A DNA stretch of 27,792 nucleotides from a virus, in the IMG/VR virus record IMGVR_UViG_3300020213_000096, positions 1-27,792 of that record; one strand, given 5' to 3'. The stretch's first letter is position 1, and the number at the start of each line of letters is the position of its first letter. The translations under genes were made by a program, and so were the position numbers. Under the pieces are notes generated by a model. It saw only the letters and a list, made by a program, of their open reading frames with translations, was not told the DNA's origin and made no database searches. This document shows positions 4,717 through 27,792 of the stretch, one piece after another.

Positions 4717-6392
4717 GAATACTACGCGTTAAGGCCAGTAATTTTGGTAGTTACCCTAATATCGACTTTGATTTTGATAACCAAGGCCTAACTCTTATTA
4801 GTGGACCTACAGGAGCTGGCAAGAGCACGCTAATGGACGTAGTGCCGTGGGCATTATTTGGCAGAACGTCTAAGAATGGTACTGTAGACGAAATCATGAG
4901 CTGGCCTTGCGATAAAGTAACGTCTGCTGTAGTCAGCCTGGGTGACGTAACAGTATCTCGCTCACGTGGTCCTAGTAGTAAAGATAATGACCTTATGTTT
5001 TGGCCCGTTGATGGTCAACCAGTAAGGGGTAAGGATATTACTGACACACAAAAGCTATTGAATGCATTTTTAGGTATTGACGCTGAGCTGTACTTGTCTG
5101 CGGCGTACTTCCATGAGTTTTCTCAGACGGCTAGTTTCTTTACCGCCACAGCTAAAAACCGCCGTCTATTAACTGAGCAGCTTGTAGACCTCACGTTAGC
5201 CAAAAAGATCAATAAGGACTTAGCAGAGTATAAAAAAGAGCTGAAAAATGCGAAAGATCTGCTTGTGGGTCAAATAGCTATATCTATAAACAATATAAAA
5301 CATACTGAAGACAAACTCAAAACAGAACAGCAGAAGTCTAAAGCTTGGAAGCAATCGCAAGAGATTCGCCTTACTAAACTAGTAGCTCTAAATGATAACT
5401 TTAAGGCGGATCAAGCAAAGTCGGTGACTTCCGTACTAGAACGCAGTCAACTCACATTACTAGAGTTAAGTAAAGATATGGCAGACTTGCGCGATGACCT
5501 AAAGTCCGATACCTACTTTACAAGCAAGAGCAGCATTATCAACGCTAGGAAAGCTAAATTAAAAGAAGTGCACTGTACCGAGTGTGGTGTGCCTAAAGAC
5601 ACAGAGAAGCGCCTTCTTATCACTAAAGATGAGTATGCACTACAGCGCGAGTTAGAATTAAATCAACAACGCCGCTCGCAAATTGATCAGACTACAGCCC
5701 GTATTAAGCGCCTAGATGACACGACCGTAAGAGATATAAACCAAGAAAACAGTCGTCATAACCCATACCCGTCTCAAATCGAAACTATTACTTTAGAGAC
5801 AAACCCGCACAATACCCATGTGCATAGTACCGCTCTTGCGGCTGAAACTGCGGTTCTTTTATCCTTAACAGACAAGAATAGTGTGCTTTCTGTCGAGTTA
5901 GCAGATATTCAACTATTACAGCAGGTTATAGAAGACTTTCGCTTAACACTTGTCAAAAATACAATTGTACATATAGAGCACACGACAAATAAGCTTTTAG
6001 CCGATCATTTTGATGCAGAGTTACGAGTTTCTTTTGAGATAGAAGACGCTGAGAAGCTTGACGTTCAAATATATAAAGACGGCAATAGCGCTACTTTTAC
6101 CCAGCTTAGCAAGGGACAAAGACACCTGCTCAAGCTTACGTTTGGAGTAGCTGTAATGAAGGCAGTATCTAACCACAGCGGCGTAAGTTTTAACGCTGTA
6201 TTTCTTGACGAAGTAGCCGAAGGATTAGACGAAGATATGAAGGTAAAGATTTATGGACTCCTACAAGGTCTGTCACTTGATCACTCTACAGTTTTGGCAA
6301 TTGACCATTCAGAAGCATTAAAAGCATTGTTCACTAATCGGTATAATGTTACACTTAGCAATGGGGCGAGTACTATTGAAAAAGCCAACTAA
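4713..6392 (+). CDS. SbcC/Rad50-like (T4 gp46-type) ATPase subunit
   Basis: SMC/ABC-type ATPase of 559 residues, partner of the SbcD-like nuclease. The TTG at 4713 overlaps the previous stop and has TGGAGGG about 8 nt upstream; GTG 4698 lies inside that site. Walker A is GPTGAGKS (31-38). The middle is coiled-coil-like, with the zinc-hook motif CTEC (288-291) at its tip. The ABC signature LSKGQ (465-469) and Walker B AVFLDE (495-500) lie at the C-terminus. The head-coil-hook-coil-head layout is complete but the coils are short, as in phage versions. It would open ATP-dependently to let the nuclease reach DNA ends. Confidence 0.9.
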   Translation: MRILRVKASNFGSYPNIDFDFDNQGLTLISGPTGAGKSTLMDVVPWALFGRTSKNGTVDEIMSWPCDKVTSAVVSLGDVTVSRSRGPSSKDNDLMFWPVDGQPVRGKDITDTQKLLNAFLGIDAELYLSAAYFHEFSQTASFFTATAKNRRLLTEQLVDLTLAKKINKDLAEYKKELKNAKDLLVGQIAISINNIKHTEDKLKTEQQKSKAWKQSQEIRLTKLVALNDNFKADQAKSVTSVLERSQLTLLELSKDMADLRDDLKSDTYFTSKSSIINARKAKLKEVHCTECGVPKDTEKRLLITKDEYALQRELELNQQRRSQIDQTTARIKRLDDTTVRDINQENSRHNPYPSQIETITLETNPHNTHVHSTALAAETAVLLSLTDKNSVLSVELADIQLLQQVIEDFRLTLVKNTIVHIEHTTNKLLADHFDAELRVSFEIEDAEKLDVQIYKDGNSATFTQLSKGQRHLLKLTFGVAVMKAVSNHSGVSFNAVFLDEVAEGLDEDMKVKIYGLLQGLSLDHSTVLAIDHSEALKALFTNRYNVTLSNGASTIEKAN

Positions 6393-6753
6393 TCCTAAAG
6401 AACGCAATCTAATCAAGGGTGCCATACGCCGCGTATTCTCTAGATCAGACCTACGTAGGTCTATCATTGATCTTAGCCGTACTAACTACTTAGACCCTGA
6501 ACGGCCTAGAGTTAAAAAGTGGTCTATTTGCACAACTTGTATGACAAAAGTGCCTACATATCTCATGGAATGTGATCATATAAGACCTATAGTACCTATT
6601 GACAGTAGACTAGAGGATATGTCTTGGGATGCAGTAGTGTCAGCAGTATGGTGCGACCCGATGAATTTGGTTGCAATTTGTAAACCTTGTCATAAGATTA
6701 AGAGTAAGCAAGAAATGAAAGATCGCCGGGAGGCCAAAAAATGTCGAAAGTAG
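6361..6753 (+). CDS. HNH endonuclease, free-standing
   Basis: About 130 residues from ATG 6361. TTG 6376 or ATG 6346 are alternatives, and none has a clear ribosome site, so the start is uncertain. It overlaps the SbcC-like gene by 32 nt. HNH features: CTTC (57-60), CDHI (71-74) supplying the H of the first motif, N102, and CKPCH (107-111). Two CxxC pairs would hold a structural zinc. The N-terminus is very basic (KKPTNPKERNLIKGAIRRVF), suiting DNA binding. The genes on either side are intact, so nothing indicates an intron here. It may serve replication or packaging, or be a free-standing homing nuclease. Confidence 0.8.
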   Translation: MGRVLLKKPTNPKERNLIKGAIRRVFSRSDLRRSIIDLSRTNYLDPERPRVKKWSICTTCMTKVPTYLMECDHIRPIVPIDSRLEDMSWDAVVSAVWCDPMNLVAICKPCHKIKSKQEMKDRREAKKCRK

Positions 6754-17860: not shown

Positions 17861-19270
17861 ATGAGCGACAAAAAACAGTCTCTAGCCATTGCCCTTAGTA
17901 TAGCGCGCAGGCCTAAAAAGAAAAAAATGGCTGAGGGTGGTGCCGTTAACGAATCAGCTAAAACTGAACAGCGCCCATCGGCTTCAGGCACGAATAACAA
18001 TTCTAAGCAAGTGTCTAACAATAGAGGCAATAAGGCTCCAGGACAAGACTCTGTACTCGATCAGCCTACAGTAGCACAGGCGCGTAAACCGTCTAAGACT
18101 CCACTTAGCCATCCTAAAATGGCTCCTATTACAGGCCCGTTTAGTGTACGCAGCCGCGATATGCACGCAGACGCAATAGACGCGATTAATCGTATGCGTC
18201 CGGACAACTATGGTGACCAGCCGCCTGCACGCTATGACGAATTAGACGCTCAGAAGCAAGGTAGTGATCCTGATATGAAGGACTCACACAGCACAGGCCG
18301 TAAGCCTTATCAGAACAGTGCAAGGCAGCCTGAAAGCAGATACCCTATTGATCCGCTTCACAGTAAACCAGAAAACCCTAAGCGTAAGTATGCTGAGGGT
18401 GGTGAAGTAGAGGAGCCAGAAGCCGCTAAAGCAAATAAGTCAAAGGGCGATAAAGCATCAACGGAAGCGGAAACATCGACTGACTCTAACACTCGCACTG
18501 CAACATCTACTAAAGCCTTTACTAAAGGCAATATAACAGTTACAGGCGGCGCAGGCCGTGGTGCAAATACCACAGTAAACCTGAACCGTAAAGAAGATGA
18601 GTCAGATGACGATATGCAGAAAATGGCCCAAGGCGGTAAAGTAACAGGCCAAGGCGCTATGTCTGATAGTGATCGTGAGTCACTATCAGATGACGGTGAT
18701 CGTAGACGCCAGCTAATAGGCCCAGGCGCTATGTCTGATAGCGAGCGCAAGTCACTATCTGATATGGATGACGATCGCCAGCTAACAGGCCCAGGCGCTA
18801 TGTCTGATAGTGATGGCCGTCAACGTTATGGCCAAGGCGGTATCATAGATATTATTCCTGACACAGGCTTCGGTAAAATCATTGTAATGAAAGCTGAAGG
18901 CGGAGAAGTAGAGTCATCTTCCGAAGATGACGAAATAGGCAAGGCTGCATCGGTAGCTGAGGCTATTATGGCCCGTCGCCGTATGGCGCATGGCGGTGCG
19001 ATTAACGGTATGGACTCAATTGATAGTGATTCATACACGGACGAAGCTGATCTCAGCCGTAACGCTGAAGAAGATGCTAACATGGCAGATCAAGCGTCAT
19101 ATAAGGCACTACGTAAAGAAAACTACAGTCAATCTGAAGGCTTAGCACAATTAGACAGTCCAGAAGACTCTAATACGCAAGGGCATGAGATTGATTCAGA
19201 TAAACATGGCGAATCACTCGTATCCGCTATACGAGCACGTATGAAACGCAAGTCACCGATTACGAGGTAA
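17861..19270 (+). CDS. low-complexity head-region protein with GG-modules, 469 aa
   Basis: 469 hydrophilic residues, lying between terminase and portal. Much of it appears disordered and rich in S, D, E, K and N. Short modules recur in which two or more basic residues precede (M/Y)A(E/H)GG: KKKMAEGGAV near 20-30, KRKYAEGGEV near 175-185, and RRRMAHGGAI near 375-385. A variant, MKAEGGEV, lies near 345. A tandem repeat of GAMSDS-starting units (24 and 23 residues, then a partial third) lies at about 264-320. I do not recognise an enzymatic domain. Its position suggests a structural or packaged protein (inference). The basic-GG modules may be binding or processing sites. Confidence 0.7.
   Translation: MSDKKQSLAIALSIARRPKKKKMAEGGAVNESAKTEQRPSASGTNNNSKQVSNNRGNKAPGQDSVLDQPTVAQARKPSKTPLSHPKMAPITGPFSVRSRDMHADAIDAINRMRPDNYGDQPPARYDELDAQKQGSDPDMKDSHSTGRKPYQNSARQPESRYPIDPLHSKPENPKRKYAEGGEVEEPEAAKANKSKGDKASTEAETSTDSNTRTATSTKAFTKGNITVTGGAGRGANTTVNLNRKEDESDDDMQKMAQGGKVTGQGAMSDSDRESLSDDGDRRRQLIGPGAMSDSERKSLSDMDDDRQLTGPGAMSDSDGRQRYGQGGIIDIIPDTGFGKIIVMKAEGGEVESSSEDDEIGKAASVAEAIMARRRMAHGGAINGMDSIDSDSYTDEADLSRNAEEDANMADQASYKALRKENYSQSEGLAQLDSPEDSNTQGHEIDSDKHGESLVSAIRARMKRKSPITR
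18653..18810 (+). repeat. in-frame tandem repeat, ~70-bp units
   Basis: The sequence GGCGCTATGTCTGATAG recurs at about 18653, 18725 and 18794, spacing 72 and 69 bp. It keeps the reading frame and encodes GAMSDS-starting units of 24 and 23 residues followed by a truncated copy. Drift between copies shows that they are not recent exact duplications. Confidence 0.75.
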
Positions 19271-22619: not shown

Positions 22620-22757
22620 ATGGCAGCAGTTTTCGCCAATAGTTCAAACCAGATTGCAGCACTAAAAGAGCTGTATACAGATGATAAAGAGTACATGAAG
22701 GATCTCGTATATAAAGAGAATCCATTCCTTGCTCTAGTTCCAAAAAACGAAAGCCCT
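22620..22757 (+). CDS. major capsid protein, exon 1 (46 codons)
   Basis: Encodes the N-terminal 46 residues of the major capsid protein, ending NPFLALVPKNESP. It starts at ATG 22620, with GAAGGA at ideal spacing. Unspliced RNA would read one more codon and stop (AAA TAA, 22758-22763), giving a 47-residue stub. The NPFLALVPKN segment is typical of coat-protein N-termini, and coat proteins normally continue towards a YGxPQGRS segment, which lies in exon 2. The exon ends on a codon boundary, after the U of CCU, as required by the group I P1 pairing. Confidence 0.85.
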
Positions 22758-23508
22758 AAATAACCGTCGGGGCTTTTACTTACTTGCACAAACTCAAGTT
22801 AAATGCTTGATATTTGGACGGATTCGCAGGTAAGTACATTCCTAGAGATATGGGAATGTAAAACCAACCAGTATCGGGGGAAGCTGAAATGCCAATCCCG
22901 AGGTAAGCTCAAGTATAAAATTTTGAGCCACCGTAGAGCGTAGTACTTGAAACTAACTACTTGATATGTTAGAATAAAATAGTACCAAGAGTGGTAGGCA
23001 ACCGAAAGGGTTGAAAATGTACGCCGAACTTGAACGAACTTGTAAAACTTGCGGACTCAGTAAAGTAGTCTCTAAGTTTACCTCGTCGGGAAATAGTCCT
23101 TCAGCTCGATCTAGAGCTAAGAATTATTGTCACGAATGCCAAAAGGCAGTGGGTAGAATAAGAGCAGCTAAACTGCGCAGGGACAGTCCTGAAAAAATAA
23201 GGGACGCTAGGTTACGACACTTGTATGGTATCTCGTTAGTAGAGTATGAAGCTAGAGTATTAGCGCAGAATAATTTATGCGCTATATGCCAGAAGCCTCA
23301 AAATCGACTAAACGGAGTTACTAAAAAACAAGAAAACCTAGTTGTAGACCACGATCATCGTACCTTAGAAGTGCGGTATCTACTCTGTCACAAGTGTAAT
23401 ATGGAAGTCGGAATAGTTGAACTAAACTTAACCCGCATTCTAGATTACTTAAATAAGTTTAAGAAGTAGAGATAAAAACCTCTACGATAACAGGCCATAA
23501 GGCCACTG
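22758..23508 (+). other. group I intron in the major capsid gene
   Basis: P1: exon bases 22750-22757 (AAAGCCCU) pair with 22769-22776 (GGGGCUUU), with the diagnostic U.G pair at the splice site. Further pairings consistent with a group I core are a hairpin with arms TACATTCC and GGAATGTA near 22835-22860, UCGGG/CCCGA (22874-22878 with 22897-22901), GCUCAA/UUGAGC (22907-22912 with 22923-22928), CUAAC/GUUAG (22953-22957 with 22968-22972) and GUACU/AGUAC (22943-22947 with 22981-22985), the last two resembling P8 and P7. The 3' end is uncertain: G23508 follows a GGCC-AUAA-GGCC hairpin, and G23502 is the alternative. Both keep the frame. A homing endonuclease gene lies inside. Confidence 0.85.
23017..23469 (+). 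CDS. intron-encoded HNH homing endonuclease (endonuclease VII-like)
   Basis: 150 residues from ATG 23017. TTG 23011 is possible, but it lies in the stem of a hairpin. Zinc pairs: CKTC (9-12) and CHEC (38-41) at the N-terminus; CAIC (88-91) and CHKC (124-127) flank the catalytic VVDHDH segment (109-114), followed by RYLLCHKCN with Asn128. The YGISLVEYEARVLAQ and DHDHRT...RYLLC pattern matches the recombination endonuclease VII family (T4 gp49 type). In this place it is most likely a homing nuclease that cuts intronless capsid alleles and spreads the intron. Its putative ribosome site AAAGGG lies in a CAACC/GGUUG hairpin (22999-23013). Confidence 0.88.
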   Translation: MYAELERTCKTCGLSKVVSKFTSSGNSPSARSRAKNYCHECQKAVGRIRAAKLRRDSPEKIRDARLRHLYGISLVEYEARVLAQNNLCAICQKPQNRLNGVTKKQENLVVDHDHRTLEVRYLLCHKCNMEVGIVELNLTRILDYLNKFKK

Positions 23509-24663
23509 GTACCTCTCGAGTATGGTACTCCCCAAGGTCGGTCACACACGTTCGCTAATGCGCAAGCACAGCAGACGGCTACAGCCCTTGTAAGCTACTT
23601 CGTATACGTTATTGAAGATTACCAATTGGTAACTATCACTAACTTACTTATGGAGCAGACAAAGACTAATGCTGGTGCATTCGTAGATGCTGCAAAGCTT
23701 CAGATGGATGGCGGTTTCCGTAACTTGACTAACAACATCGCTTTTGAGTTGTTCGGTTCAGGCACAGCTACTCGCGGTATCTCAGCAGGTACTTCTAGCC
23801 AAACTGGTGCAAGCCCTAACGTAGTAACTATTCCACTTACAAATGCTAGCCAAATTGTGGCATTCGAAGTCGGCATGTTACTAGTTGCGTCTACTACAGA
23901 CGGCGGCGCTCCTGGCGCTACTGGCGTAGTTGTCACAGCGGTTAACCGCGCTTCAGGCACTGTTACTGGTAACGGTATCACTCTTGCTACTGGTGCATCG
24001 GTTGCGTCTCTTGACGCTAACTTTGCTATCGGTTCAGGCATTGCTTACCTTACAGTGTCAGGCGACTTGCCAGCCGCCGGAGCTACTAATACTGGTTCAT
24101 TCTTGGCGCTTTCAGGCCTTGCGGCTTGGATTCCAGTAACTAGCCCTAGCTCTACTGATAACTTCTGGGGTGTAAACCGTTCAGCAGATCCTACTCGACT
24201 TGCGGGTTGCCGTTTCGACGCTTCTAGCATGACTATCGAAGAAGGTATGACTAACGCGCTTGCATTCTTGAACCGCGAAGGTGGTAAACCAGATCTTGCG
24301 ATCATCGACTTCGCGTCGTACGCAGCTCTAGTTAACTCTCTTGGCGCTAAAGTACAGTACGTTCAAGTTAACCACGATGAAGTCGAAGTTGCATTCGAAG
24401 GTATTACCTTCCAGTCAGCTTACGGTCGCGTGACTATCTTGGCTGATCGCTCTTGCCCACCACAAACGTGCTACCTTCTCACAATGAACACATGGAAACT
24501 ACGTTCATTAGGTAAAGTACCGCACATCTTGACTTACGGCATGGAAGGTCTCGAAGGTCTTCGCGTCGGTAATGCGGATGCTCTTGAGATTCGCATTGGT
24601 TACTACGGTAACCTTATCTGTGCAGCTCCAGGTTGGAACTGCGTAGTGCAACTCAGCGCTTAA
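23509..24663 (+). CDS. major capsid protein, exon 2
   Basis: Encodes the remaining ~384 residues (386 if splicing is at 23502). It opens VPLEYGTPQGRSHTFANAQ, the coat-like segment expected to follow exon 1. The open frame runs upstream of the TTG at 23626 to the intron boundary without a stop, so a start at 23626 would be an artefact. Gly/Thr/Ala/Val-rich beta regions (about 80-180 of the exon) resemble an inserted beta domain. The C-terminal part (RIGYYGNLICAAPGWNCVV) looks like a capsid core strand. Leucine codons are CTT/TTG-rich: only 3 of about 35 are CTA, unlike neighbouring genes, and Asn and Phe favour AAC and TTC. That is consistent with very high expression. Confidence 0.9.
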   Translation, partial: VPLEYGTPQGRSHTFANAQAQQTATALVSYFVYVIEDYQLVTITNLLMEQTKTNAGAFVDAAKLQMDGGFRNLTNNIAFELFGSGTATRGISAGTSSQTGASPNVVTIPLTNASQIVAFEVGMLLVASTTDGGAPGATGVVVTAVNRASGTVTGNGITLATGASVASLDANFAIGSGIAYLTVSGDLPAAGATNTGSFLALSGLAAWIPVTSPSSTDNFWGVNRSADPTRLAGCRFDASSMTIEEGMTNALAFLNREGGKPDLAIIDFASYAALVNSLGAKVQYVQVNHDEVEVAFEGITFQSAYGRVTILADRSCPPQTCYLLTMNTWKLRSLGKVPHILTYGMEGLEGLRVGNADALEIRIGYYGNLICAAPGWNCVVQLSA

Positions 24664-27267: not shown

Positions 27268-27497
27268 GCAAAGAACTAGCAAATTTTATAGGATTATTAG
27301 TAATAGGCGCATTCTTATATTATATGCCGTATTTATCAATGGCATTACTAGGGTTATGGCTTATAAGCGTTGTGTGTGGTTCTCTTTACCTACTATTGGC
27401 TACAGATGTTAAAACTACAGAAGGAGTTAAGAATGAAAAAGTCAACAAAGTTACTAGTACTGATACTGATCCTGGGCAGCGCGGCGGCATGTGCTAG
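27264..27497 (+). CDS. small membrane protein, 77 aa
   Basis: Probable start ATG 27264, in an ATGA overlap with the micro-ORF; ATG 27231 is in frame but lacks a site. Two hydrophobic segments, about residues 7-27 (FIGLLVIGAFLYYMPYLSM) and 24-47 (MALLGLWLISVVCGSLYLL), give one helical hairpin or two transmembrane helices. A polar, charged tail follows (VKTTEGVKNEKVNKVTS). The topology fits a small holin or other inner-membrane protein, but nothing proves it. The last 64 nt overlap the start of the lipoprotein gene. Confidence 0.55.
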   Translation: MSKELANFIGLLVIGAFLYYMPYLSMALLGLWLISVVCGSLYLLLATDVKTTEGVKNEKVNKVTSTDTDPGQRGGMC

Positions 27498-27792
27498 AGG
27501 CCCTCGAGGAAGTCAAGGGCATGGCGGCACCCCAGGCGTCGGCTGTGAAGTAAGCCAGCTAGCTAATGGTGCCTTGATCTCATGTGGCGGCAATACAACG
27601 GCTGTAGTATATAACGGCGCAGCTGGTAGCGACGGTCAAGACGGTAGCGACGGTAGCGATGGTCAAGATGGTCAAGATGGTCAAGATGGTCAAGATGGTC
27701 AAGATGGTCAAGACCTAGCCCCTGGTGCATATAGTGTGGTAGAGGTTATTAATCCTTGTGGCGCAAGCCCTGGATATGACGAAGTATTACTT
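27434..27792 (+). CDS. collagen-like lipoprotein, partial (runs off the window)
   Basis: ATG 27434 with GAAGGAG 6 nt upstream. The leader MKKSTKLLVLILILGSAAAC ends in Cys20 and would be processed as a lipoprotein (lipobox-like AAAC). A Gly-rich stretch and a short domain with Cys (GCEVSQLANGALISCGG) follow. Then come ten Gly-X-Y triplets (GSD/GQD) without Pro, and then LAPGAYSVVEVINPCG. The frame continues past 27792. Gly-X-Y repeats form collagen-like trimers in several phage fibres and bacterial surface proteins. A lipidated, collagen-repeat phage protein would be displayed on the host envelope. Possible roles are exclusion, adhesion or a virion attachment. The domain after the repeats is outside the window. 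Confidence 0.75.
27625..27714 (+). repeat. ten 9-bp tandem repeats (collagen-like triplets)
   Basis: Ten units of GGTCAAGAT, GGTAGCGAC and close variants, each one Gly-X-Y triplet; the last six are almost identical (GGTCAAGAT or GGTCAAGAC). The near-identity suggests recent slippage, and length may vary between relatives. Confidence 0.85.

Follow-up and report, generated by a model that had tools for sequence, protein, structure and literature searches.

Short coreless inserts with group I guide sequences lie beside full group I introns in a phage capsid gene family

Introduction

What interrupts the major capsid gene of the virus in IMG/VR record IMGVR_UViG_3300020213_000096, and how could an insert that carries no catalyst of its own be removed from it? 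The stretch analyzed here, hereafter the window, covers positions 1 to 27,792 of that 27.8-kb virus record and contains terminase, portal, scaffold-like and capsid genes. A first-pass annotation, made from the DNA letters, had proposed that the capsid gene is split by one group I intron encoding an endonuclease VII-like protein. Group I introns are regarded as self-contained, each with its own catalyst. Within such an intron, a distinction is drawn between the substrate domain, formed by the internal guide sequence (P1 and P10), and the catalytic core, which contains P3–P9 (PMC8393795). Here, we report that the capsid gene holds two inserts, namely a full group I intron of 665 nucleotides (nt) and a 59-nt insert that has the guide sequence without the core, and that short inserts of the latter type, called minis below, recur in related capsid genes. 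We propose, with a probability of about 0.72, that each mini is a non-autonomous intron of group I type, coreless and removed by the ribozyme of the neighboring full intron.

Results

Two inserts flank a nine-codon exon in the capsid gene

We delimited the inserts by splice-aware alignment to relatives, in which an insert was allowed at any phase and no splice-site letters were preferred. Exon 1 closes with the KNESP codons, its last base being T22757 and its end falling between two codons, and is followed by AAA TAA, which places a stop two codons on; the coat sequence is back in frame at YGTPQGRS, all as first described. Intronless relatives read VPKNESP-DGFAGKYIP-VPLEYGxPQGRS uninterrupted, and the window encodes DGFAGKYIP inside the supposed single intron. 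The gene thus holds two inserts, of 59 nt and 665 nt (Table 1), which the first-pass annotation had merged, together with the exon between them, into one intron beginning after KNESP. The 5′ site given to the large intron was thus wrong, and splicing from it would delete DGFAGKYIP, a peptide invariant in the aligned relatives. At the other end, 23502 and 23508 had been offered as alternative 3′ splice sites; because VPLEYG directly follows IP in the intronless relatives, we place the site after G23508 and discard 23502. Joining the three exons yields an open reading frame (ORF) of 439 codons that matches relatives along its whole length, with predicted spliced-RNA junctions of AAAGCCCU joined to GACGGA and AUUCCU joined to GUACCU. 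Gene callers miss such inserts, as in the window's own ORF list, which puts the capsid ORF start at 23626.

The encoded protein matches the phrog_9953 major head protein (2e-8) and, weakly, SU10_MCP (22.6 bits, below the cut-off of 24.1), and its gene adjoins those for portal and terminase. Across the first 55 codons (exon 1 plus the micro-exon), the window and the intronless locus L057 differ by 29 synonymous and 0 non-synonymous codon changes, which argues that both exons are translated; judged from these changes, they are under strong purifying selection.

The longer insert is a group IA-like intron with a covarying core

Besides a P1 of its own, the 665-nt insert carries a group I core. 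When 28 large introns of the family were aligned, the 42 pairs of P3, P4, P5, P6, P7, P7.1, P7.2 and P8 were formed in 96.7% of cells, with 259 double-change cells versus 76 in shuffles and a covariation score of 0.598 versus 0.188 after shuffling. Sliding the partner strand by one to three columns lowered pairing to 29–41%. P7, for example, is GCGUA/UACGC in the window and GACUA/UAGUC in L048 and L055. As read from its sequence, the insert is a complete group IA-like intron, for which core and P1 predict guanosine-dependent self-splicing; the P7.1 and P7.2 helices suggest subgroup IA. The original proposal of a group I intron within the major capsid gene is thereby upheld, by the core covariation and the phrog_9953 match, and its endonuclease VII-like gene was likewise recovered: the ORF matches the Pfam family Endonuclease_7 (7.4e-16; 58.3 bits versus a cut-off of 23.6) and phrog_2633 (1.9e-27). 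Since the start of this ORF overlaps P8 and the second (3′) P7 strand, its bulk lies in the P9 region.

The 59-nt insert and 29 further minis share a guide with P1 and P10

In the window's mini, P1 comprises nine pairs, counting a G.U, and is also the minimum free energy hairpin. The exon–guide P1 with a U.G, described earlier as 8 bp and credited to the large intron, is this same helix; the pairing is real (8–9 bp), and it belongs to the mini. It is retained in relatives despite changes on both strands.

An IMG/VR search supplied 79 capsid relatives and then 78 more loci, some of them on contigs already represented. Another two capsid scans yielded almost exclusively known contigs and added four new loci, all without inserts, indicating that, at the search depth used, few IMG/VR members of this family are missing from the sample. 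Across the two data sets there are 30 distinct minis (the window's and 29 more), measuring 30–59 nt and located at nine codons (22, 28, 30, 31, 34, 35, 46, 51 and 413). In all 30, the last exon base is U and the last insert base is G, and in each, one strand pairs with the 5′ exon end starting from a U.G (P1) and is immediately preceded (in one case with one base between) by another that pairs with the start of the 3′ exon (P10). P1 positions 2–7 are paired in 173 of 180 cells and P10 positions 1–5 in 149 of 150, through many pair types. No catalytic core of P3–P9 is present in the minis, whose 30–59 nt are too few for one and comprise just a guide hairpin plus a brief tail. Because they have the group I substrate features and no core, we class them as coreless dependents and not as group I introns proper.

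The pairing far exceeds that of controls. Among the first 26 minis, P1 and P10 together average 11.8 bp, versus 5.1 when inserts are shuffled and 5.0 when they are swapped between sites, and the maximum of any control set is 6.2. Furthermore, P10 tracks changes in the exon: at codon 31, the two strands read ACAAA/UUUGU, AUAAG/CUUAU, AUAAA/UUUAU or ACGCUA/UAGCGU, and at codon 46, GACGG/CCGUC gives way in L133 to GAUGGUUU/AAACCAUC. A mini's own P10 has 5.4 bp on average, compared with 4.2 after exchange within a site. At codon 46, the base at the splice position is T for all nine distinct minis, versus 12 of 69 intronless genes. The minis in phase 1, at codons 31 and 413, interrupt a codon that removal of the insert alone would restore, and codon 31 specifies an invariant Tyr. 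Most minis contain an early in-frame stop, which is common in introns too.

Minis occur together with full introns

Insert content was compared across full-length capsid genes, 105 of them distinct: 72 lack any insert, 28 combine a mini with a full intron, five contain a full intron only, and 0 contain a mini only (Fisher 1e-20, a nominal P as the genes are related). Each mini is followed downstream by a full intron, 21–114 nt away except for one at 303 nt. Its partner is either a 600–870-nt intron with an endonuclease or a 200–220-nt intron without an ORF (L004, L063, L070 and L075), and two minis per gene are found in L007, L008, L063, L070 and L075. The inserts and their limits, the covarying P1 and P10, the core and this strict co-occurrence are all shown by the sequences; the co-occurrence makes the neighboring intron the natural candidate ribozyme.

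A model for the removal of minis

Lacking P3–P9, a mini would have no catalysis of its own, and we infer that its P1/P10 helix docks in the core of the neighboring full intron. The folded core would dock either its own P1 or that of the mini. Guanosine bound in P7 would then attack after the exon U, and the freed 5′ exon would attack after the mini's terminal G, held there by P10. The neighboring core would thus perform both transesterifications on the mini, either in cis, within a single RNA, or in trans, in addition to those on itself, while in the mini the guide strand alone would bring the two splice sites together. P10 averages 5.5 bp in minis versus 2.5 bp in full introns, perhaps because the 3′ site of a mini comes without a tethered core.

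In vitro work has established that P1 docking depends on the helix and its U.G, not on sequence, so that several guides could share a single core. Core-only group I ribozymes have been made to act in vitro on a separate P1 helix, recognizing the U.G rather than the sequence. There, as in minis, P1 is not joined to the core in the usual way; those ribozymes are engineered, whereas minis appear natural and come with P10 and a 3′ splice site.

Table 1. Positions of capsid-gene features in the window and of short introns without an ORF in related loci.
Feature	Position	Strand	Basis or remark
Exon 1, major capsid gene (46 codons, MAAVFANSS...VPKNESP)	22620–22757	+	ATG 22620; splice-aware alignment to relatives
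Mini-intron, 59 nt, group I-type substrate domain only (putative)	22758–22816	+	exon-final U, insert-final G, in-frame TAA two codons in
P1 of mini	exon 22749–22757 (GAAAGCCCT) / guide 22769–22777 (GGGGCTTTT)	+	U22757.G22769 at splice site
P10 of mini	guide CCGTC 22764–22768 / next-exon start GACGG 22817–22821	+	pairing, covariation
Micro-exon, 9 codons, DGFAGKYIP	22817–22843	+	relatives' alignment; residues invariant in aligned relatives
Full group I intron, 665 nt	22844–23508	+	terminal G23508; alignment, own P1, core covariation
P1 of 665-nt intron	22836–22843 (ACATTCCT) / 22852–22859 (GGGAATGT)	+	U.G pair, exon-final U, intron-final G
Group I catalytic core	22864–23024	+	covariation over 28 introns
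P3	22864–22870 / 22992–22998	+	part of group I core
P4–P5	22874–22901	+	part of group I core
P6	22902–22932	+	part of group I core
P7	22938–22942 / 23020–23024	+	part of group I core
P7.1–P7.2	22943–22985	+	part of group I core
P8	22999–23013	+	part of group I core
Endonuclease VII-like homing-endonuclease ORF	23011–23469	+	start TTG 23011 or ATG 23017
P9-like hairpin GTAGAG...CTCTAC, then conserved GATAACA	23466–23485	+	large-intron 3′-end alignment
Exon 3, remainder of major capsid gene (VPLEYGTPQGRS...VVQLSA stop)	23509–24663	+	intronless relatives; phrog_9953
Short intron without ORF, L004	2795–2997		
Short intron without ORF, L063	2084–2292		
Short intron without ORF, L067	2811–3012		
Short intron without ORF, L070	4892–5101		
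Short intron without ORF, L075	4157–4378		
Short intron without ORF, L077	3092–3321		
Short intron without ORF, L128	4671–4872		
Short intron without ORF, L161	4515–4716		

Discussion

In the leading rival explanation, itself unlikely, group I chemistry removes the minis through a ribozyme other than the neighbor, lying in another gene or in the host, or with a dedicated protein. Adjacency to a core is not required in principle, and the nearest core in L067 is 303 nt off; against this stand the 28 full-length genes with both elements versus 0 with a mini only, and the position of the full intron, which is always downstream and usually within 21–114 nt.

Could ribosomes instead hop over the minis? 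The coding gap of T4 gene 60 has been linked to a homing endonuclease, and minis, too, are associated with one, whose activity might have placed them as translational bypass elements. Minis share with that 50-nt gap a short size, an early stop (in-frame, in most of them) and a hairpin, which in minis is on the take-off side (PMC5009743). In gene 60, however, bypass runs between matched codons (PMC5009743), whereas the take-off codon equals the landing triplet in 0 of 23 phase-0 minis, and the phase-1 minis of codon 31 split an invariant Tyr codon. Moreover, bypass predicts neither the exon U and insert G found in 30 of 30 minis nor a group I guide whose P10 covaries with the 3′ exon, and we consider it highly improbable.

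A reading of the minis as debris, in genes that decay as pseudogenes in dead or defective phages, is scarcely credible: the loci are all metagenomic, and a tblastn search with the capsid exon matched no isolate in the phage collection, but the pairing rules are kept in all 30 distinct minis at nine sites, and the exons show a strong synonymous bias. A scan of bacterial genomes likewise found no relative, and a TerL scan gave no result. The least probable reading, a single large intron from 22758 to 23508 (or to 23502) yielding a capsid protein minus DGFAGKYIP, can draw on the in-phase 5′ sites of the window, on KNESP-VPLEYG being in frame, and on the group I exon skipping described in phage Twort, but the DNA does encode that peptide, which does not vary among the aligned relatives and is under purifying selection, the 665-nt intron has its own P1, and in relatives such as L001, whose mini is in phase 0 and whose full intron is in phase 1, skipping would shift the frame.

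Several points weigh against removal of minis by the neighboring ribozyme. Both the RNA-level removal and the identity of the acting ribozyme are deduced from DNA. The co-occurrence also fits any process that makes short inserts beside endonuclease-bearing introns, and the 303-nt distance in L067 makes the link of that core to its mini uncertain. The guide position was picked for maximal pairing, a choice repeated in the shuffle and swap controls and not in the controls of the later covariation analysis of 30 minis. A covariance-model search, suggested in the first-pass annotation as a check, came back empty: the Rfam group I models, at gathering and E-value thresholds, matched neither the window nor 12 relatives, so the assignment of the large introns' core rests on the covariation analysis. 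An Rfam match is a detection aid and not a defining trait, and the models may not cover the subgroup of these introns. Finally, minis are seen only in this capsid family, so action in trans is no more than a possibility. In relatives, the genes for DNA polymerase, portal and scaffold gave no comparable inserts, so no minis turned up outside the capsid gene, and a core-motif scan of viral contigs returned this capsid family only, in the loci examined.

An intron in a capsid gene is not in itself new, nor are phage genes with multiple introns; the coreless mini is the unexpected part. Group I introns split the capsid genes of phages LittleE and Tuc2009 (PMC3706429), where the intron type and the major capsid gene as its host resemble the present case, and LittleE also has a U before the intron, a G at its end and an endonuclease gene inside; a single insert is described there, with no coreless partner (PMC3706429). 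Euglenoid chloroplast group III introns, which are degenerate group II introns, have similarly lost most of the ribozyme and need help in splicing, but they derive from group II, with no such neighboring ribozyme partner named (PMC8393795). Splicing of mitochondrial split (trans-spliced) group I introns also needs RNA parts that are not contiguous; those are one intron in pieces, whereas a mini is contiguous and coreless (PMC8393795). In the open-access literature, we found no relevant report of coreless or non-autonomous group I introns. If spliced as proposed, minis would be, to our knowledge, the first natural non-autonomous group I introns.

How might minis have arisen, and what might they do? 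Codon 51 is occupied by a full intron in L023, L033, L078, L126, L130 and L132 and by a mini in L028 and L077, whose full intron lies ten codons downstream; minis could be core-deleted remnants. In a fully supported endonuclease clade (L001, L012, L048, L055, L067 and L075), introns sit at codons 21, 26, 30, 30, 36 and 123, and codons 21–26 are always interrupted, by a mini or an intron, although this clade was picked after the fact. The pattern fits, suggestively only, a mini that spoils the endonuclease target; mini sites and full-intron sites both cluster on the endonuclease tree, so target protection is not decisive. We hypothesize that a mini makes loss of its partner intron costly. More speculatively, minis as core-deleted remnants might block the endonuclease target and render loss of the full intron lethal. 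In a broader and rather doubtful extension, one phage ribozyme would drive the splicing of a number of coreless introns, perhaps in trans as well, a natural separation of catalytic RNA from the introns that depend on it, comparable to that of spliceosome and nuclear introns, with the mini blocking the endonuclease target and holding the gene hostage: were the full intron lost, the mini would be left unspliced and the capsid gene dead.

If removal by the neighboring ribozyme is correct, one ribozyme serves several introns in a protein-coding gene. How introns can lose their cores and come to rely on a shared catalyst would become directly testable; group II introns are postulated to have taken this step in giving rise to the spliceosome. 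Minis would also offer a simple route by which a selfish intron could make itself indispensable, and RNA engineering would gain a minimal, naturally occurring guide format.

Other inserts and genes

A second class of introns, approximately 200–230 nt long and without an ORF, is present at many different codons of the capsid gene (Table 1), and several of its members contain GATTGACTTGGA and the GACTA/TAGTC motifs typical of group I P7. Up to five inserts occur in the capsid genes of L035, L063 and L070; L070 has minis at codons 46 and 413, full introns at codons 53 and 310, and a 210-nt intron at codon 424. In L008, positions 1038–1925 form an 888-nt insert at codon 15 in which the core motif of the large introns was not recognized; its tail, CTACGATAACA...CTG, is as in the others. 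The terminase large subunit of L083 (4217–5564) lies in two frames abutting at residues 121/122 with one extra base, a sequencing error or a frameshift.

Elsewhere in the window, a free-standing HNH endonuclease gene (6346–6753) is flanked by sbcC-like and phosphoesterase-like genes. A small low-complexity ORF at 1599–1844 consists mainly of Gly-Tyr-Ser repeats (YGSGYGYGDGYGSGYG...). Within the interval between terminase and portal, a 469-residue ORF (17861–19270) shows internal repeats (GPGAMSDSDRESLSDD) with AEGGEVE/AHGGAI motifs, and a lipoprotein-like ORF with a collagen-like GQDGQDGQD repeat (27370–27792) runs past the end of the window.
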